NCBI GenBank assembly: GCA_903900975.1
Contig: CAIUPE010000141.1
Coordinates: forward strand, 1 to 64,000
Length of the DNA: 64,000 bases
Origin: an uncultured Hyphomicrobiales bacterium
Lineage (GTDB): Bacteria; Pseudomonadota; Alphaproteobacteria; Rhizobiales; Beijerinckiaceae
Direction of reading: 5' to 3'
Part shown: one piece after another, positions 39,891 to 48,313 of the stretch
How the letters are laid out: each line of letters opens with the position of its first letter
Position numbering within the stretch: position 1 is the stretch's first letter
The notes under the pieces: model-generated
The model's input: the letters and a program-made list of their open reading frames with translations, nothing else
Databases searched by the model: none
Told to the model about the DNA's origin: nothing
Program-made: the position numbers and the translations under genes

Positions 39891-40621
39891 GGGGCTAAGT
39901 CCTCGGTTTCGGCGAAGGCGATCCGCACGCGGCGGTTTTGCTTGCCCTTCTTCTCAATAGCGGTAACGACGATCCGCCCGATTTCCGATGTGTTGTGAAC
40001 ATGGGTGCCACCGCAGGGCTGGAGATCTAACCCAGCGATGTCGACCAGACGAACCCGACCAGTCCCGATGGGCGGCTTCACGGACAGGGTTTTTACCAGC
40101 CCCGGATTGCTTTCGAGTTCCTCGTCGGTAATCCAGCGGAACGTAACATCCGCGTTTAGCCCAATACGGCGGTTGAGATCTGCCGTGATCGCATCTTTGT
40201 CGAGACCGGCATCAGGGATATCAAAATCGAGTCGCCCTTCGCCGTCTCCAATCGCGCCGCCTGTGACGGGAAAAGGCAGCGTTGTGGTCAACAAATGCAG
40301 GGCCGTGTGAATTCGCATGCGGTCAAAGCGCTTGGCCCAATCGAGCACAAGCGTCACGCGCTCGCCGATAGCGGGCGGAGCGGACCCCTCGGCTAAAACA
40401 TGAATGACCTCGCTTTTGTCCTCGCCGTAAACGGTTGTCGCAATCTGAAGCGAGGTTCCGTCACCACGGAGCAGAACACCCGAATCGCCTGGTTGACCAC
40501 CACCGGTCGCATAAAAAATGGTCCGGTCGACACAAATACCGCCGCGATCATTCACACTCATCACATGAGCGGTGCACTCTTTGAGATAGGCATCATCGCG
40601 AAAGAGCAGTTCGGTACTCAC
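39887..40621 (-). CDS. alaX: Alanyl-tRNA editing protein AlaX
   Basis: Stand-alone trans-editing hydrolase that removes Ser (or Gly) from mischarged tRNA-Ala. 244 aa. The zinc-site motifs are intact: HTALH in 'MRIHTALHLLTT' and CGGTH in 'LQPCGGTHVHNTSEIG'. The N-terminal strand part has 'FYATGGGQPGDSG' as in AlaRS editing domains. The start is a GTG at 40621 that overlaps the cysteine synthase stop (GTGA). A longer frame upstream overlaps that gene and has no similarity. Confidence 0.9.
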   Translation of the reverse strand: MSTELLFRDDAYLKECTAHVMSVNDRGGICVDRTIFYATGGGQPGDSGVLLRGDGTSLQIATTVYGEDKSEVIHVLAEGSAPPAIGERVTLVLDWAKRFDRMRIHTALHLLTTTLPFPVTGGAIGDGEGRLDFDIPDAGLDKDAITADLNRRIGLNADVTFRWITDEELESNPGLVKTLSVKPPIGTGRVRLVDIAGLDLQPCGGTHVHNTSEIGRIVVTAIEKKGKQNRRVRIAFAETEDLAP

Positions 40622-41652
40622 GGCAGAAAATCCGGTTGTATCGTCGACGTCCGTTCGAGCCACGCCGGAACAGGCAGGTCTTTCGAGCGTAAGAATTCGG
40701 GGTTGTACAATTTCGAGGCGTATCGCGCTCCGCCATCGCACAAGATCGTTACAACCGTATGTCCGGGGCCCAAAGAGCGGGCAAGGTGAATGGCGCCTGC
40801 GACATTGATGCCAGAGGAGCCGCCGAGCGACATGCCCTCTTCGGCGAGCAAGGCAAAGGTTAGCGGTATGGCTTCGCTATCGTGAATCTGGAAGGCGATA
40901 TCGATGGGCGCATCTTCGAGATTTTTCGTAATGCGGCCTTGCCCGATGCCCTCGGTGATCGACGATCCTTCCGATTTTAAGATACCATCGGTGTAATAGG
41001 AATAAAGCGCGGCCCCCATGGGATCGGCAAGGCCGATTTTGATCGAAGGGTTAAAACGCTTCAAGCCCATGCCAGTGCCTGCCAGCGTGCCGCCGGTGCC
41101 AACCGCGCATATGAATCCGTCGATTTTGCCGCCCGTCTGTGCCCAAATCTCGGGCGCGGTCGTATCGATATGCCCTTGCCGGTTGGCGACATTGTCGAAC
41201 TGATTGGCCCAGATCACCCCATTCTTTTCGGTGGTCGCCAACTTTTCAGCCAGTCGGCCAGAAAGTTTGACGTAATTATTGGGATTGGAATAAGGGACGG
41301 CCGGAACTTCGATCAGTTCAGCGCCCATTTGCCTTAGCGCGTTCTTTTTCTCGATCGATTGTGTGTCCGGAATAACAATGACGGTTTTAAGGCCCAGAGC
41401 ATTACCTACCAGCGCCAGACCAATGCCGGTATTTCCGGCAGTACCTTCGACAATGGTGCCGCCAGGTCTCAATCGGCCCGTAGCCATCGCATCGCGGATC
41501 ATCGCCAGCGCCGCACGATCTTTTACTGAACCACCTGGATTCATGAATTCGGCTTTACCGAGAATGGTGCATCCCGTCGCTTCCGACGCCCGTTTTAGCC
41601 GAATGAGCGGTGTGTTGCCGATTGCTTCTAAGACGTCTTCAGCGATTTGCAT
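40618..41652 (-). CDS. cysK: Cysteine synthase A
   Basis: PLP-dependent O-acetylserine sulfhydrylase, 344 aa from the ATG at 41652 (MQIAEDVLEAIGNTPLIRL). The PLP lysine is in NPGGSVKDRA, the phosphate-binding TAGNTGIG and GTGGTLAGTG loops are present, and the C-terminal Ser/Gly-rich 'LGGSSGINVAGA' follows. The open frame extends another 108 codons upstream but only with low-similarity sequence. It heads the cysK-alaX-sseA operon and diverges from chrR across 176 bases. Confidence 0.93.
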   Translation of the reverse strand: MQIAEDVLEAIGNTPLIRLKRASEATGCTILGKAEFMNPGGSVKDRAALAMIRDAMATGRLRPGGTIVEGTAGNTGIGLALVGNALGLKTVIVIPDTQSIEKKNALRQMGAELIEVPAVPYSNPNNYVKLSGRLAEKLATTEKNGVIWANQFDNVANRQGHIDTTAPEIWAQTGGKIDGFICAVGTGGTLAGTGMGLKRFNPSIKIGLADPMGAALYSYYTDGILKSEGSSITEGIGQGRITKNLEDAPIDIAFQIHDSEAIPLTFALLAEEGMSLGGSSGINVAGAIHLARSLGPGHTVVTILCDGGARYASKLYNPEFLRSKDLPVPAWLERTSTIQPDFLP

Positions 41653-41768: not shown

Positions 41769-41797
41769 TAATCCGAATGATCGATTGTGACGTAAGA
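41769..41797 (+). promoter_or_regulatory. ECF11/RpoE-type promoter of chrR
   Basis: TAATCC (41769-41774), exactly 18 bases, TAAGA (41793-41797). The RpoE-ChrR consensus of Rhodobacter is TGATCC, 18 bases, TAAGA, so only one base differs. The transcript would start near 41804, about 25 bases before the TTG start of chrR. Confidence 0.55.
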
Positions 41798-41828
41798 CTC
41801 ATGTAAAAATATTCATGGAGTTTGAGTT

Positions 41829-42488
41829 TTGGGCATAGGTTCGAACACCAACCAAGATGACAGCGGATTAAATGCACTGTTAGCCGATTATGCGGCGGGT
41901 CGATTATCCGCGCCTTTGCATGGCTTGGTGGCTGGTCATTTGGTGATGAAGTCCGAAAATCGCGCCTTTGTCGCAACGCTTGAGGCGATGAAGGCCGCTA
42001 GCCTAGAATTGCGGGATAATGTGCCTCTTTCGGATCGGAATAAGGTGCTTGCTAGGATATTGAGCGCAGTAGAACATGTGCCGGTTGCCGAACAATCTCC
42101 CTCGCATGCCCTTATTCCTCCTCCCGTCGCCGCCTTTATTGGCGATGATTGGCCGAATTTGAAATGGCATACCGTTATGCCCGGGCTCAAGGAAGTGCGC
42201 TTACCTTGTGAGGCGGGCACGGATGCGTCGCTGCTATGGATCAAGGCCGGTCGTGTCATGCCGGCACATAGCCATGATGGTACAGAAGTTACACTGGTAC
42301 TTCAGGGCGGGTTCTCGGATGGAAACGGACATTATTGCCGAGGCGATATCGCCATTGCCGATTCAGACGTTGAGCACCGGCCGCGAGCTGATGAGGGCGA
42401 CGATTGCGTTTGCTTTGTCGTGAATGATGCCCCTTTGCGTATGACGGGTCCGATTGCACGTTTCATTTATCGTATGCGAGGGCATTGA
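41829..42488 (+). CDS. chrR: ChrR-like anti-sigma factor with cupin domain
   Basis: 219 aa, similar to ChrR of Rhodobacter along its whole length. The N-terminal anti-sigma part has 'NALLADYAAGRLS' and H37, but the other zinc ligands are gone: Lys41 and Asn44 replace the CxxC, and the early His is missing. The C-terminal cupin keeps its metal set H147, H149, E153 and H183 (AHSHDGTEVTLVLQGGF, VEHRP). ChrR normally holds its sigma factor until singlet oxygen frees it. No sigma gene is adjacent. The start is TTG with GGAG 8 bases upstream. Confidence 0.85.
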   Translation: MGIGSNTNQDDSGLNALLADYAAGRLSAPLHGLVAGHLVMKSENRAFVATLEAMKAASLELRDNVPLSDRNKVLARILSAVEHVPVAEQSPSHALIPPPVAAFIGDDWPNLKWHTVMPGLKEVRLPCEAGTDASLLWIKAGRVMPAHSHDGTEVTLVLQGGFSDGNGHYCRGDIAIADSDVEHRPRADEGDDCVCFVVNDAPLRMTGPIARFIYRMRGH

Positions 42489-42489
42489 G

Positions 42490-43287
42490 TTGGCCAATCT
42501 TTATCGAGCATCACCGAAAGACGGCATTGCATGGGTGACGGGCGCAAGCTCGGGTATTGGGCGCGGTACGGCGTTAGAATTGGCGCGTCGCGGCTATACC
42601 GTGGTTGCGACAGCTCGCCGCGTGCAGGAGTTGGAACATCTCGCCTCGGAGGCTAAAGGCCTATCGGGACGGATTGTCCCTGCAACCTGCGATGTAACCG
42701 ATCCGGAAAGCATGGTTTGGTTGGTAGAACGGCTGGAGAGGGAGCATGGCGATATCGTGCTCGCTTTCCTCAATGCCGGCATTTATTTTCCGCTGCGGGC
42801 CAATCCGTTCGATGCGGAGGCCTTCCGCAAAACCTTTGACGTTAATGTCTATGGCGTCATTAATGGTATAGCGGCTGTTTTACCGCGTATGGTCAAGCGC
42901 AAGCGCGGACAGATCGCCTTGAATGGGTCGGTGGCCGGTTATGGTGGATTGCCGCGCGCGGCCGCTTATGCGGGCAGTAAGGCAGCATTGATCGCGATGG
43001 CGGAAAGCTTGAAGTTTGATACAGACCTGCTGGGCCTTACGCTTCAAATCGTTAATCCCGGATTCGTTGAAACGCCACTGACAGCGCTTAACGATCACCC
43101 GATGCCATTTTTGATGAAGCTCGACGAGGCATCACGCAGAATCTGTGATGGATTCGAGCAAGGCGGCTTCGAGATCACATTTCCCAAGCGCCTTGCCTTT
43201 ATCCTGAAGGCGCTGAATCTGCTGCCATATCGCGCTTATTTCGGGTTGATCGCGGCTATGACCGGCTGGAACAATAAGGCCCCTTAG
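42490..43287 (+). CDS. SDR-family oxidoreductase (stress-linked)
   Basis: 265 aa from a TTG at 42490 (GAGGG 8 bases upstream, one base after the chrR stop). TGASSGIG near 17-24 of the product, NAG, and the YAGSK active site. The C-terminus is hydrophobic (LNLLPYRAYFGLIAAM), hinting at membrane contact. A dehydrogenase of this kind accompanies cfa, DUF1365 and amine-oxidase genes in the singlet-oxygen regulons of alphaproteobacteria. It overlaps cfa tail to tail by 4 bases. Confidence 0.85.
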   Translation: MANLYRASPKDGIAWVTGASSGIGRGTALELARRGYTVVATARRVQELEHLASEAKGLSGRIVPATCDVTDPESMVWLVERLEREHGDIVLAFLNAGIYFPLRANPFDAEAFRKTFDVNVYGVINGIAAVLPRMVKRKRGQIALNGSVAGYGGLPRAAAYAGSKAALIAMAESLKFDTDLLGLTLQIVNPGFVETPLTALNDHPMPFLMKLDEASRRICDGFEQGGFEITFPKRLAFILKALNLLPYRAYFGLIAAMTGWNNKAP

Positions 43288-44531
43288 GTCTTGGCATAGA
43301 TGATTTGGCGGACATCGATATTTCCCGCGCGAAATCCGGCTTCGCAATAAGCAAGGTAATATTCCCACATCCGGCGAAAGCGCTCGTCAAATCCCAACGG
43401 CGTTAATTCGGGCCAAGCCGCGCGGAATTTATCACGCCAAGCGGCCAGTGTGTCGGCATAGTCAATGCCAAATATGCGTTCATGGCGAATGGCCATTCCT
43501 ACTTTTTCGCCCAGTGATTTCATGATCGAGGGCGATGGCAGCATGCCGCCGGGAAAAATATAACGCCGTATGAAATCAACTTCGAGACGATAGGACTCAA
43601 AAAACTGGTCCTGAATGGTAATCACCTGAAGACCGGCGACGCCAGTCGGTGTCAAACGTTCGGCAAGCGTATTAAAATAAACCGGCCAGTATTGCTCGCC
43701 GACGGCTTCAAACATTTCGATCGATGCGATTCGATCATAGTGACCGATTTCATCGCGGTAATCTTGAAGCTTAATGTTAACTTTATCAGTTAAACCTTGA
43801 TCAAATATGCGCTTTTTAGCAAAATCATATTGTTCTTGTGAAATAGTCAGTCCGGTTACCTTGCAACCGATTTCTTTAGCGGCAAATTCGGCAAATCCGC
43901 CCCAGCCGCAACCGATTTCCAGTACCGAATGATGGTCCGTTATGCCCGTTTCGCGCACAAGGGTGGCATATTTATTCTGTTGGCCCTGATATAAGTCCTT
44001 TCCATCGGCGGTAAACAACGCTGACGAATAGGTCATGGATGGGTCGAGCCAGCGCGAGTAAAATGCATTGCCCAAATCATAATGGGCGTGAATGTTACGC
44101 TTTGACCCCGATTTAGTGTTCCGATTCAACCAGTGCTTGAACAATTGCCAGAACCGGACAATCGGCCGGTCGGTCAACATTGATGAGATCAGATGGTGAT
44201 TGGCACAAAAAAGCTGCAAGAAAGTTGTGAGATCGGTGGCTTCCCATTCGCCGCGCAGAAACGACTCGGCAATCCCGATATCACCCGATGTCACCATGCG
44301 TTTCGCAAAGCGATAATCGTGCAGGATCATTTCGGCATTCGGTCCAGGCATTGCGCCACCAAAACGGAAGCAACGGCCATCGGGCAATTGAACCACCAGC
44401 GAACCCACCTCGATTTTCGACGCAAAATCAAACGCTTTGCGCATGAGATACGGCAAGCCCTGACGACTTTGGCTAAAGATTTCAGAGGTTATCTGGACCG
44501 ATTCCAAGGATGTTTCGGGATCGTTCAGCAT
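43284..44531 (-). CDS. cfa: Cyclopropane-fatty-acyl-phospholipid synthase
   Basis: 415 aa SAM-dependent enzyme that methylenates unsaturated acyl chains in membrane phospholipid. N-terminal lipid-binding part, then the SAM site VLEIGCGWGGFAEFAA near residue 197, 'GLTISQEQYDFAKKRI', and 'FIRRYIFPGGMLPS'. CfaA belongs to the photo-oxidative regulon of Rhodobacter. Last gene of the phr operon; its start overlaps the DUF1365 stop by 7 bases. Confidence 0.95.
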   Translation of the reverse strand: MLNDPETSLESVQITSEIFSQSRQGLPYLMRKAFDFASKIEVGSLVVQLPDGRCFRFGGAMPGPNAEMILHDYRFAKRMVTSGDIGIAESFLRGEWEATDLTTFLQLFCANHHLISSMLTDRPIVRFWQLFKHWLNRNTKSGSKRNIHAHYDLGNAFYSRWLDPSMTYSSALFTADGKDLYQGQQNKYATLVRETGITDHHSVLEIGCGWGGFAEFAAKEIGCKVTGLTISQEQYDFAKKRIFDQGLTDKVNIKLQDYRDEIGHYDRIASIEMFEAVGEQYWPVYFNTLAERLTPTGVAGLQVITIQDQFFESYRLEVDFIRRYIFPGGMLPSPSIMKSLGEKVGMAIRHERIFGIDYADTLAAWRDKFRAAWPELTPLGFDERFRRMWEYYLAYCEAGFRAGNIDVRQIIYAKT

Positions 44532-45400
44532 GGTTTTTCCTCGCCACTAATCGTTTCCGCCCTTTTTGGGTCCGGATGGATGCGTTGGTCGTCATTTGGG
44601 AAACTCACCGCAGGTGGTGGCGCGGGCCGCGAGACGAGACGCATGCCCTTGGCCCATAAACGCAGCGCTTCCACGTGAATTCCAAGTACGATTTTGAGCG
44701 TAAGAAAGGGGATCGTCAAGCACAGAGCCAATACGTTTCTGCTCGTCAACCGGCGTTTTATGCCATGAAAGGTCGCAGCCAAAATAGGACTCTGGCCATC
44801 TTTGACCAAAATACGCAGCGCGAGGCGATCCGTCGGGGGGTGAATACGAAAAAAATAGCGCATGGCGAGCGGGTTAAACGGAGATACGTAGAACAGTTTT
44901 TCGCAGGCCTGACGGATCCCTGCAGGCGTGATTTGATCCGTTTGAACGGGTTCGACATAGGTGTGGGCCTGTCCGAATGTATTTCGAACTTCGTAGGCAA
45001 TGGCGCGCAAATTCCCGTCGCTGGAATAGCCGAAATAGACAGAAAGCGGATCGAAAACATATCCCAATATACGTGGATAACAGAGCAGTAGGACACGGCC
45101 ACCGGCGAGATCGACGCCAGCCTGATGAAACAGACCCAAGGCATAGGGGAGGAGAGCCGAACCATCTCGAATCCCGTGGTCCTTTTCGTAAAAACTCAGT
45201 ATATTGAAGCGGTTAATTGAAAAGAACGCACTTTGACGCTTGGCTTCCTGATAGGCTCCAAGATCCAGCAAAATTGAAAACACGCGATAACTGAACCGAT
45301 GGGTAACGGGCTTCATCCGCGCATGCATGACGGGGCCGACATACAGGCAAACCGGCTCAGGCGGCGGCAGAAATCGTGTGTCTGCCCCGGCCAACATCAT
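44525..45400 (-). CDS. DUF1365 family protein
   Basis: 291 aa. 'LYVGPVMHARMKPVTHRFSYRVF' at the start and 'YPRILGYVFDPLSVYFGYS' are the hallmark segments of DUF1365; no catalytic set is known to me. It is almost always beside the amine oxidase and Cfa encoded here, so a part in making or modifying membrane lipids under stress is likely by association. Its ATG overlaps the stop of the amine oxidase (ATGA). Confidence 0.88.
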   Translation of the reverse strand: MMLAGADTRFLPPPEPVCLYVGPVMHARMKPVTHRFSYRVFSILLDLGAYQEAKRQSAFFSINRFNILSFYEKDHGIRDGSALLPYALGLFHQAGVDLAGGRVLLLCYPRILGYVFDPLSVYFGYSSDGNLRAIAYEVRNTFGQAHTYVEPVQTDQITPAGIRQACEKLFYVSPFNPLAMRYFFRIHPPTDRLALRILVKDGQSPILAATFHGIKRRLTSRNVLALCLTIPFLTLKIVLGIHVEALRLWAKGMRLVSRPAPPPAVSFPNDDQRIHPDPKRAETISGEEKPC

Positions 45401-46743
45401 TCGGCAGCCACGGCATAATCAGGCATCGGACGCCAATGGGGTATAACGCCCAAACGTTCGGCTACATCGAGACCCGACATCAAGCCATCTTCGTGAAAGC
45501 CATGGCGCGACCAAGCGCCACAGTACCACGAGCGGTTGGTGCCTTGAATTAGGTTGAGCCGAGGCTGTGCCGCTATGGCAGCCTTATCGAATTGCGGATG
45601 ATCATAAACATACGTCCCAAAGGTCAATTCCGCAGCTGGCGGTTCGGCGGGATTAAGCGTCACGAAAAGGGGGCAAGCGGGATCAATGCCTTGTAAATGG
45701 TTCATCCAGTAGCTGACGCATAATTCGGCGTTGCGTTCTTTGTCCTGAATCACGTTCCACGAACCCCATGCGCGCTTGCGACGGGGCATCAGACGTGGGT
45801 CGCGGTGCAGATATACAGTGTTGGGTTTATAGGCGATGGCACCCAGCACGCTCCGCTCTAGTGGCGTAGCATCGGCCAACATCGACAGGGACTGGTCAGT
45901 ATGCGTGGCCAACACAACGCCATCATATTCTGCTGTGGAACCATCAGCGAGTGTTAAGCTGACCCCATTGTCATGGCGGATCACGCGGGTAACCCGTGTC
46001 GAAAGTTTCAATCTGTCGCGATAGGCATCGATCATTTTTTCGACATATACCCGGCTGCCGCCCGTAACTGTGCGCCATTCGTGACCATTATATTGCAACA
46101 AATGATGATTGCTGAAAAACGAGATGAACGCTTTGACCGGAAAATTCAGCATGGATTGGGTCGACATCGACCAAATCGCAGCGCCCATCGGCAAAAGATA
46201 ATCGTCCTGAAAGCGGGTTGAAAACTGGTTGATCCTTAAATAATCGCCGAGCGTCCGTTCATCGAGTCGGTCATGTGTCAGATCGTCGGTTGCCATTTTA
46301 TTGAACCGCACAATTTCCAGAAGCATTTTTAGATAGCTTGGCGAAAGCAGGTTGCGCGGTTGGGCAAAAATGCCGCTGATAGTTCCGCGCGAACGGCCGC
46401 ACCACTCAAACCGACCTGCATCGACCGACAGAGCGAAGCTCATATCCGAGCCATGGGTTGCGACCTGCAAATGGTCTAGTAACGCCGTAAGATTGGGATA
46501 ATTAGGCTCGTTATAGACAATAAAGCCGGTATCAACCGAAATGGACTTGCCGTTGTAATCAATATCAACGGTCGCCGCGTGCCCACCGGCGCGGCTGTTC
46601 TGCTCATAAACCGTTATCTGGTGCCGCGGTGACGATGCCAAAGCATAGGCTGCCGCATTTCCAGCTATTCCAGTGCCGATAATGGCAATATTCATTGGCT
46701 TGCTCGATTTCGATATCGGTGGGTTGTGGGTCGCTATCGTCAT
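45397..46743 (-). CDS. FAD-dependent amine oxidase/desaturase-like protein
   Basis: 448 aa. An FAD-binding motif MNIAIIGTGIAGNAAAYAL at about 17-35, with the second strand 'YEQNSRAGGHAATVDID', then 'SVDTGFIVYNEPNYPNL'. This is the NAD(P)-binding amine-oxidase group (COG2907) found next to DUF1365 and Cfa. The precise substrate is unknown; a role in lipid modification is inferred from the neighbours. phr lies 3 bases upstream. Confidence 0.85.
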   Translation of the reverse strand: MTIATHNPPISKSSKPMNIAIIGTGIAGNAAAYALASSPRHQITVYEQNSRAGGHAATVDIDYNGKSISVDTGFIVYNEPNYPNLTALLDHLQVATHGSDMSFALSVDAGRFEWCGRSRGTISGIFAQPRNLLSPSYLKMLLEIVRFNKMATDDLTHDRLDERTLGDYLRINQFSTRFQDDYLLPMGAAIWSMSTQSMLNFPVKAFISFFSNHHLLQYNGHEWRTVTGGSRVYVEKMIDAYRDRLKLSTRVTRVIRHDNGVSLTLADGSTAEYDGVVLATHTDQSLSMLADATPLERSVLGAIAYKPNTVYLHRDPRLMPRRKRAWGSWNVIQDKERNAELCVSYWMNHLQGIDPACPLFVTLNPAEPPAAELTFGTYVYDHPQFDKAAIAAQPRLNLIQGTNRSWYCGAWSRHGFHEDGLMSGLDVAERLGVIPHWRPMPDYAVAAE

Positions 46744-46746
46744 GGA

Positions 46747-48207
46747 TCAAGCCGTTTCTTTGAGTGCTTTATAGGCCGCCAGGGCGTCTTCCCGCGCACG
46801 CTCGTGATTGACAAGAGGGGCAGGGTAGGTTGATCCGAGTTTCACACCGAAAGATGACAATTCAAGCGGCCGAGCTGTCCAAGGTGCATGGATGACTAAG
46901 GAGGGCAGGCTTGCCAGCTCAGGTACAAATCGGCGGACATAACGTCCGTCGGGATCAAATTTTTCGCCCTGCAGCATCGGGTTGAAAATTCGATAATAGG
47001 GAGCTGCGTCGGCACCTGAACCTGCGACCCATTGCCAGCTGGCAGGGTTACTGGCGGGATCGGCATCGAGCAACGTATCCCAAAACCACGCTTCACCTTC
47101 CCGCCAGTCGATCCGGAGATGTTTGATCAAGAAGGAGGCCACAATCATTCGCACGCGGTTGTGCATGAAGCCCGTTTGCCACAACTCACGCATGCCCGCG
47201 TCAACAATGGGATAGCCGGTTTGTCCGCGCTTCCACGCGTCCAGCATGACGGGATCATTTCGCCAATTGAACTGGTCGAAACTACGTTGAACATTAATTG
47301 ACGACAGATCCGGCTGATGAAAGAGCAAATGGTAGGAAAATTCCCGCCAACCGAGTTCGGATTGGAAAATCCGTAGGTCTTCTGAAGAGGCTCGTGTTTG
47401 GCCTGAGTGATAAGCGGCTTCTGTCGCATGCCAGACTTGCCGAATCGATACTTCCCCAAATCGCAAATAGGGCGAAAGCCGTGACGTTGAGGGCAGATCG
47501 GGCCGGTTCCGGCTATCACCATAGCCTGCAAAACCTTCAGAGATGAAGCGGTCCAGCGTAACGCGCGCACCATTTTCCCCAGGGATCCAAGCCTCCGACA
47601 GCCCGCCAGACCAATCGGGGTTCCTCGGTAAAAGATTGAGCTCCGCAAGAGAAGTGGGCTTCGGGCCATTTCTTATCGGGGTCGACGGCGCAAGTCGGGA
47701 TGGCGCAGGGGCAGGCTGAGGTACAACAAAATCAAGTCGCGCCGCCCGCCAGTAAGGCGTGAAAACGCGCATCGGTGTGCCCAGTTTTGACGTAACTTCC
47801 CAAGGCTCTCGCAGCAAGCTGCCGTTATAACTTCGAACGGTACTGCCGGATGATTCGATATTGGCTTTTAACGCGGTGTCGCACGCCACTTGCTCCTTAT
47901 GATATCGGCGGGTCCAGAACACCGTTGTTGGCTTCAGAGCTTCAACCAGCGATGGAATTACAACGGAAGGATCACCGCGATAGAGGTGCAATTGTCCGCC
48001 AAGAGCAGCGATATCGGCGGAGAGGCGCTCAAGGCTATGGTTAAGCCACCACCGCTGAGCTGCTCCTAACGCCCGGCCATGCAAACTTGAATCATCAACG
48101 ATATAGATGAGATGCAGGGGCTTTTCCGTTTGCACTGCAGCAGCAAGCGCGGGGTTATCGGTGAGGCGAAGATCGTCACGAAACCAAAAAAGGACCTTTT
48201 CGGTCAT
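46747..48207 (-). CDS. phrB: Deoxyribodipyrimidine photolyase
   Basis: 486 aa from the ATG at 48207. The N-terminal antenna domain has 'LFWFRDDLRLTDNPAL' and the C-terminal FAD domain has 'GMRELWQTGFMHNRVRMIVASF', 'HLRIDWREGE' and 'RIFNPMLQGEKFDPDG'. This is the class I CPD photolyase pattern. The conserved Trp electron-chain residues appear present. Photolyase is a known member of RpoE/ChrR regulons. First gene of phr-amine oxidase-DUF1365-cfa. Confidence 0.94.
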   Translation of the reverse strand: MTEKVLFWFRDDLRLTDNPALAAAVQTEKPLHLIYIVDDSSLHGRALGAAQRWWLNHSLERLSADIAALGGQLHLYRGDPSVVIPSLVEALKPTTVFWTRRYHKEQVACDTALKANIESSGSTVRSYNGSLLREPWEVTSKLGTPMRVFTPYWRAARLDFVVPQPAPAPSRLAPSTPIRNGPKPTSLAELNLLPRNPDWSGGLSEAWIPGENGARVTLDRFISEGFAGYGDSRNRPDLPSTSRLSPYLRFGEVSIRQVWHATEAAYHSGQTRASSEDLRIFQSELGWREFSYHLLFHQPDLSSINVQRSFDQFNWRNDPVMLDAWKRGQTGYPIVDAGMRELWQTGFMHNRVRMIVASFLIKHLRIDWREGEAWFWDTLLDADPASNPASWQWVAGSGADAAPYYRIFNPMLQGEKFDPDGRYVRRFVPELASLPSLVIHAPWTARPLELSSFGVKLGSTYPAPLVNHERAREDALAAYKALKETA

Positions 48208-48313
48208 GATAGTCTTAACCCTGAAATCCAACACACAAAACCATTACGAACGAAACACCCGACCGGTTCATCCGCCCGATTGCGCTGGATCGGTATCATG
48301 TTGGAAAAAAGGG

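Follow-up and report, generated by a model that had tools for sequence, protein, structure and literature searches.

A ChrR-family anti-sigma gene apart from its putative sigma gene in a branch of the Hyphomicrobiales

Which sigma factor does an anti-sigma factor control when no sigma gene stands beside its own gene? This question is raised by a chrR gene in a stretch of 64,000 nucleotides (hereafter the window) on contig C141 of an uncultured Hyphomicrobiales bacterium. In described RpoE-ChrR systems the sigma and anti-sigma factors are transcribed together from the sigma factor's promoter. A first-pass annotation of the window had reported a ChrR-like anti-sigma gene behind an ECF-type promoter, a divergent cysteine synthase gene upstream of it and no sigma gene in the window, leaving either a sigma factor encoded elsewhere or a new partner as the target of the regulator.

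An anti-sigma gene and a distant sigma gene

Comparison of the chrR product with curated models identified it as a true ChrR-family anti-sigma factor composed of an anti-sigma domain (ASD) and a cupin domain. The gene has 219 codons, a TTG start and a GGAG (41817-41820) 8 nt 5' of that start, and its product scored 145.0 bits against TIGR02451 (curated cut-off 124.5), matched PF12973 and aligned with Rhodobacter sphaeroides ChrR (2z2s_B) over residues 15-206 with 121.7 bits; its score against the narrower equivalog NF051881 was 112, below the 300 of that model. No second TIGR02451 match was found in the genome at E-values up to 1, making chrR the sole match. The divergent cysteine synthase gene was also confirmed (Table 1), and a profile search with PF04542 (E up to 0.001) found no sigma gene on the whole of contig C141, in agreement with what had been reported for the window.

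Genome-wide (2.9 Mb in 153 contigs), the same search identified six sigma genes. The search for an ECF11 sigma gene that the first-pass annotation had proposed thereby yielded a single ECF11-like gene, C50:46780-47352, on another contig than chrR. Its best solved relative is R. sphaeroides SigE (2q1z_A, 162.5 bits; next 74.8 bits), and its ECF11 group was assigned from this closest relative, not from an ECF11-specific model. Of the two other ECF sigma genes, one has an adjacent NrsF gene and the other is EcfG-like, with matches to PhyR_sigma2 and the PRK12547 model, a combination for which we assume the name EcfG. The remaining three presumably encode RpoH, RpoD and FliA, judging by size and sequence.

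Analysis of 199 genomes drawn evenly from the Hyphomicrobiales revealed chrR (E-value at most 1e-10) together with the sigma gene (at least 100 bits) in 119 and neither gene in 80, a co-occurrence that is perfect at a 100-bit line chosen after the list was seen; below that line, eight genomes without chrR have weaker sigma matches of 75.9-84.6 bits. The two genes lie side by side (linked) in 72 of the 119 genomes and are unlinked in 47. No genome among the 199 had both arrangements, where 17 would be expected if these were independent (hypergeometric 1.4e-11, kinship ignored). Two sigma matches of at least 100 bits occurred in one genome only (G200, both linked), and none of the linked genomes in the 199 had a further, unlinked sigma gene at that score. 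Among 60 relatives, a ChrR match was found in 40 (two of them weak) and a sigma match at 1e-20 in 38. Among the best 80 of 586 candidates, no sigma gene was found within the chrR locus (flanks of at most 6 kb) in, among others, Stappia, Roseibium, Pannonibacter and Beijerinckiaceae metagenome-assembled genomes. The family of the window genome has both forms, four of its members being linked (G016, G018, G026 and G028).

In a tree of 130 genomes built from sigma and cupin columns by a quick method, with long rows flagged, all unlinked rows fell on the same side of a single branch (SH-aLRT 99), from which the separation of chrR from the sigma gene reads as a single change. The divergent cysK gene follows the same division, since it adjoins chrR in 41 of the 51 distinct loci that lack a sigma gene and in none of the 51 that have one (counts from 110 loci, eight of them duplicates of a chrR already counted). 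Together, the sigma gene on contig C50, the perfect co-occurrence and the clade-wide arrangement strongly support the first of the two possibilities raised by the first-pass annotation, namely that the target of ChrR is a sigma factor whose gene lies elsewhere in the genome.

Promoter motifs and the putative regulon

The annotated pattern TAATCC-N18-TAAGA is present directly before chrR exactly as described, at 41769-41797 (+), and at the level of sequence the ECF-type promoter is real; its -10 element, however, is CGTA after a 16-base spacer, not TAAGA after 18. In relatives, unlinked chrR genes share TGATCC-N16-CGTA as their conserved upstream element. The candidate TAAGA was rejected because the bases after CGTA vary; it consists of the last two bases of CGTA and those that adjoin them. 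From the position of the element, the predicted chrR transcript would start at about 41800-41804.

Table 1. Features at the chrR locus (positions in the window).
Feature	Positions	Strand	Evidence
cysK, divergent neighbour of chrR	40618-41652	-	PRK10717, 554 bits
ECF11-type promoter of chrR, TAATCC-N16-CGTA	41769-41794	+	motif search and conservation upstream of chrR
chrR	41829-42488	+	TIGR02451, PF12973
Short-chain dehydrogenase (SDR), RSP_1087-like	42490-43287	+	profile match; TTG 42490 start inferred
CFA-like SAM methyltransferase, UfaM/CfaA-like, last gene of convergent run	43284-44531	-	PF02353
DUF1365 protein, UfaO (RSP_1090)-like	44525-45400	-	PF07103, 246 bits
Flavin amine-oxidase-like protein, UfaD (RSP_1091)-like	45397-46743	-	PF01593
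DNA photolyase phr, first gene of convergent run	46747-48207	-	PF03441, 293 bits; PF00875, 164 bits
Second ECF11-type promoter, TGAACC-N16-CGTA, 37 nt before phr start	48245-48270	-	motif search

The annotated pattern with at most one mismatch occurs 99 times genome-wide (6 exact) versus 61 for the reversed control, and its two matches in the window are near chance (1.86 expected from shuffles). TNATCC-N16-CGTA occurs 18 times in the window genome versus 11 for the reversed control, and since at least nine of these matches lie inside long same-strand open reading frames, the genome-wide count alone proves little. A larger difference was observed for TGATCC-N16-CGTA with at most one mismatch (182 versus 41 for the reversed pattern), an excess that may reflect in part base composition and in part a larger regulon. 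The significance of the chrR promoter comes from comparison across genomes, the single-genome pattern not rising beyond chance.

For that comparison one motif rule was applied to 400 nt upstream of each gene, accepting at most one mismatch at N16, an exact match at N15, or nnATCC-N16-CGTA. Of 64 unlinked chrR genes, 62 had the motif upstream (50 with at most one mismatch at N16, seven exact at N15 and five as nnATCC-N16-CGTA); in the other two it was absent from these 400 nt even under this wide rule. Its distribution at sigma genes was the reverse: 1 of 63 unlinked sigma genes had it (as nnATCC-N16-CGTA), one further gene being too near a contig end for the scan, and none of the 63 came within one mismatch at N15-17. 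Among linked pairs it was found upstream of 52 of 66 sigma genes (51 with at most one mismatch) and 1 of 66 chrR genes. The reversed control gave 0/64 for unlinked chrR, 0/63 for unlinked sigma, 1/66 for linked sigma and 0/66 for linked chrR. All 12 members of the window's genus carry the motif upstream of chrR. These distributions suggest that in the unlinked form only the anti-sigma gene is under sigma control. The unlinked sigma factor thus seems to act in trans, on a regulon to which the gene of its anti-sigma factor belongs and its own gene does not.

The genes around chrR point to the content of that regulon. If the TTG start at 42490 is right, the SDR gene begins 1 nt after the chrR stop codon, and the two genes probably form one operon, which faces a convergent run of phr, ufaD-, ufaO- and ufaM-like genes (48207 down to 43284). 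The UfaO-like product is compared here with RSP_1090, which we take to be a DUF1365 protein. RSP_1091 and RSP_1090 are named UfaD and UfaO in the furan fatty acid synthesis pathway in excerpts of PMC7380195, where the R. palustris homologues of ufaD, ufaO and ufaM are RPA2571, RPA2570 and RPA2569; the putative UfaM identity of the methyltransferase follows by analogy with that gene order. In P. syringae, the orthologue of RSP_1091 carries the annotation flavin-containing amine oxidase (PMC5507510, in part). Excerpts of a 2019 review place furan fatty acid genes within the core SigE-ChrR regulon and tie furan fatty acid synthesis to ChrR turnover (PMC6852236). As the SDR and phr-ufa-like neighbours correspond to this known core regulon, chrR sits among what is likely its own regulon, and the phr-ufa-like run has an ECF11-type promoter of its own (Table 1).

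Motif conservation supports several candidate members. Upstream of phr the motif was found with at most two mismatches in 17 of 17 distinct clusters (eight exact, five with one and four with two mismatches; 20 rows scanned), versus 1/17 for the reversed control. A gene for a DUF2177 membrane protein had it with at most one mismatch in 10 of 11 genus members (control, 0/18 rows). In the window genome this gene (C132:25298-25666) has an exact TGATCC-N16-CGTA upstream (L381, L112), and in the linked genome G040 a DUF2177 gene lies directly 3' of chrR. A weaker case is a BLUF blue-light receptor gene, with the motif at up to two mismatches in all five genus members having BLUF and in 1 of 13 control rows; a photoreceptor under a photo-oxidative sigma factor would be notable. 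The copy in the window genome (C12:16084-16359) has TAATCC-N16-CGTA upstream (L356, L099). Among SDR genes, 11 of 53 rows had the motif with at most one mismatch, the window SDR gene not being one of them. No motif enrichment was found upstream of cysK (47 rows), none that was clear upstream of the CFA, DUF1365 and amine-oxidase genes, and no ECF11-type motif upstream of the RpoH gene.

Zinc ligands and the proposed circuit

The ASD of R. sphaeroides ChrR binds zinc through H6, H31, C35 and C38, and zinc binding is required for inhibition, according to excerpts of PMC6852236. The corresponding residues of the window ChrR are S12 (placed by offset), H37, K41 and N44, so only the second histidine is kept, and the ZAS signature (HxxxCxxC with an N-terminal His in the ASD) was not found in this protein. 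The CxxC is missing from 63 of 64 unlinked ChrRs; the one exception, in G094, is accompanied by a second, zinc-less ChrR, and both G094 genes carry the exact motif upstream. G094 and G131 each have a single ECF11-like sigma gene and a pair of unlinked ChrRs, of which one has the CxxC and the other lacks it; within this set (L388, L389, L390 and L251), L388, L389 and L390 have the exact motif upstream.

Linked ChrRs retain the CxxC in 59 of 66 cases in the main count, which covers 66 of the 72 linked genomes, and in 5 of 10 more (the other six and four from the window's family), giving loss in 12 of 76. Zinc-ligand loss has therefore also happened without separation, and at least seven changes are needed to place CxxC loss on the tree. 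In the linked genome G162, chrR (L398) appears to be split over two frames, and the sigma gene next to it has the exact promoter motif; the split may stem from a sequencing error, and this ChrR was counted as zinc-less. Because chrR and sigma separated only once on the tree, the association of this separation with zinc loss amounts to one case, and the tree offered one usable independent pair for this comparison. Sigma residues that differ between the unlinked and linked clades lie mainly in region 2.3-2.4 (R79, L77, R84), with no clear tie to zinc loss. At the site matching R. sphaeroides K38, which we take to contact ChrR, 25 of the 64 unlinked sigma factors and 58 of the 66 linked ones have a Lys, a difference that we treat as no more than a lead.

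The metal site of the cupin domain is intact. H147, H149, E153 and H183 of the window ChrR match R. sphaeroides H141, H143, E147 and H177, and all 130 rows (64 unlinked, 66 linked) have the HHEH ligands. The ASD is also not decaying: dN/dS values of 0.02-0.11 in seven of eight genus pairs (the eighth was saturated) show that it is under purifying selection in unlinked ChrRs. A structure predicted from 40 unlinked sequences has four ASD helices (block pLDDT 83-96), and over both domains it resembles R. sphaeroides ChrR (2q1z/2z2s, 185-189 columns) with TMt 0.85 and rmsd 2.4 across 186 columns, a likeness of fold that does not prove sigma binding.

We consider it likely (probability about 0.78) that chrR encodes the anti-sigma factor of the C50 sigma factor, that it inhibits independently of zinc from an unlinked locus, and that ECF11-type control applies to the anti-sigma gene only. 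The C50 sigma gene would have a transcript of its own, starting from a site where no ECF11 promoter is present. In the absence of stress the N-terminal four-helix domain of ChrR would hold the sigma factor without structural zinc, and the cupin domain would be the sensor part. A photo-oxidative signal, by analogy singlet oxygen or lipid peroxides, would inactivate ChrR or trigger its breakdown, and the freed sigma factor could then act at TNATCC-N16-CGTA-type promoters of chrR-SDR, the phr-ufaD-ufaO-ufaM-like run, the DUF2177 gene and perhaps the BLUF gene. Newly made ChrR would shut the response off. Since the sigma gene has no ECF11 promoter, the direct positive loop of rpoE-chrR would be lost and negative feedback through the anti-sigma factor left, so the response should be self-limiting. 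With less confidence, but still on balance, we favor extending this to a whole clade of ECF11 systems, with zinc-free inhibition by a far-off anti-sigma factor, a sigma gene outside its own regulon and negative feedback only.

When it lost its zinc ligands, the unlinked ChrR may also have lost its anti-sigma activity and become a stress-induced cupin protein; the sigma factor would then be regulated otherwise, e.g., through its own transcription. The zinc requirement in R. sphaeroides, the near-universal lack of CxxC and the behavior of chrR as a regulon member would all agree with this, yet we regard it as unlikely since an inactive ASD is difficult to reconcile with purifying selection on a domain whose predicted four-helix fold is kept, with the occurrence of chrR only together with the sigma gene (119/119), and with RseA and RskA, whose ASDs inhibit without a zinc motif (PMC7406223, in part).

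It is far less probable that the target of ChrR is a different sigma factor or some new partner, and that the ECF11-like sigma factor has another anti-sigma factor. Although chrR and the sigma gene do not adjoin and the latter often has a conserved neighbourhood of its own, the two genes scanned beside the C50 sigma gene (a pterin dehydratase gene and a weak IalB match) include no anti-sigma gene, and the other ECF sigma factors are accounted for. The perfect co-occurrence of chrR and sigma at the threshold used rules against a new partner, and the one suggested by the first-pass annotation is not needed. The recurrent place of unlinked sigma genes beside an ialB-like gene was seen at 44 of 64 loci, many of which are short (L068-L090, L095, L255-L294). 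Least probable of all is a separation produced by fragmented assembly with a chance match as promoter, as the 153 contigs and the near-chance pattern in the window might have suggested: six of the 47 unlinked pairs share one contig at distances of 1.0-3.4 Mb along it (less if circular) and a seventh (G031) is 1.6 Mb apart, which speaks against an assembly artefact, neighbour genes are kept at both the chrR and the sigma loci of unlinked genomes, and the motif precedes nearly every unlinked chrR and none in the reversed control.

Comparison with known systems

The preferred reading, an unlinked and zinc-independent anti-sigma factor of the C50 sigma factor, describes a known kind of system, a ChrR-family protein with an ECF11-like sigma factor, in an arrangement that we judge to be a new, widespread variant of RpoE-ChrR, because it lacks adjacency, sigma autoregulation and the feature that defines ZAS. 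Nothing in the titles and abstract starts of the literature searched describes a ChrR clade that is unlinked or zinc-less; an earlier mention is possible, as key surveys lay outside that search. In one large branch of the Hyphomicrobiales a regulator of the response to light damage and its putative brake are encoded far apart, the brake is without its zinc clamp, and it alone seems to be induced by the regulator, an arrangement that would amount to a rewiring of a textbook stress circuit. This provides a natural comparison between relatives in which sigma and anti-sigma factor, or the anti-sigma factor alone, are autoregulated. The clade is also a natural test in another respect, having lost the zinc CxxC and kept the cupin site and the core regulon: if it still senses singlet oxygen, sensing must lie with the cupin or with furan-lipid-driven turnover and cannot be the role of the ASD zinc. 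Surveys that seek anti-sigma factors beside ECF genes would leave the unlinked group without a regulator; according to excerpts of PMC7406223, that survey took ASDs from ECF-gene neighbourhoods, so unlinked ones fall outside its method.

The non-zinc class I ASDs of RseA and RskA resemble the ASD considered here in being helical and, by the account in excerpts of PMC7406223, in inhibiting without zinc, but they belong to another sequence family. Linked ChrRs such as those of Jannaschia, Thalassobacter and Neptunicoccus, and those of the loci L314, L323, L347 and L393, have likewise lost the zinc CxxC, with the cupin ligands kept in the three that were checked (L314, L323 and L347); unlike the window ChrR, they still adjoin the sigma gene, and those three stand apart on the tree. 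PSPTO_1043/1042 of P. syringae has, from ChIP-seq of PSPTO_1043, the identical consensus TGATCC-N16-CGTA and a phrB operon in its regulon, although its sigma and anti-sigma genes adjoin and its sigma gene has the promoter (excerpts of PMC5507510). The closest counterpart is RpoE(SigE)-ChrR of R. sphaeroides (ECF11), with which the system shares a homologous sigma factor and two-domain anti-sigma factor, the cupin metal ligands, a TGATCC-type promoter and the regulon genes phr, SDR, ufaD, ufaO and CFA-like methylase. In contrast to that system, the rpoE-like gene is not immediately upstream of chrR (the two are on different contigs here, and unlinked in 47 of 119 genomes), the sigma gene is without an ECF11 promoter, the ASD zinc ligands are lost, and chrR instead adjoins an SDR gene and faces the phr-ufa-like run.
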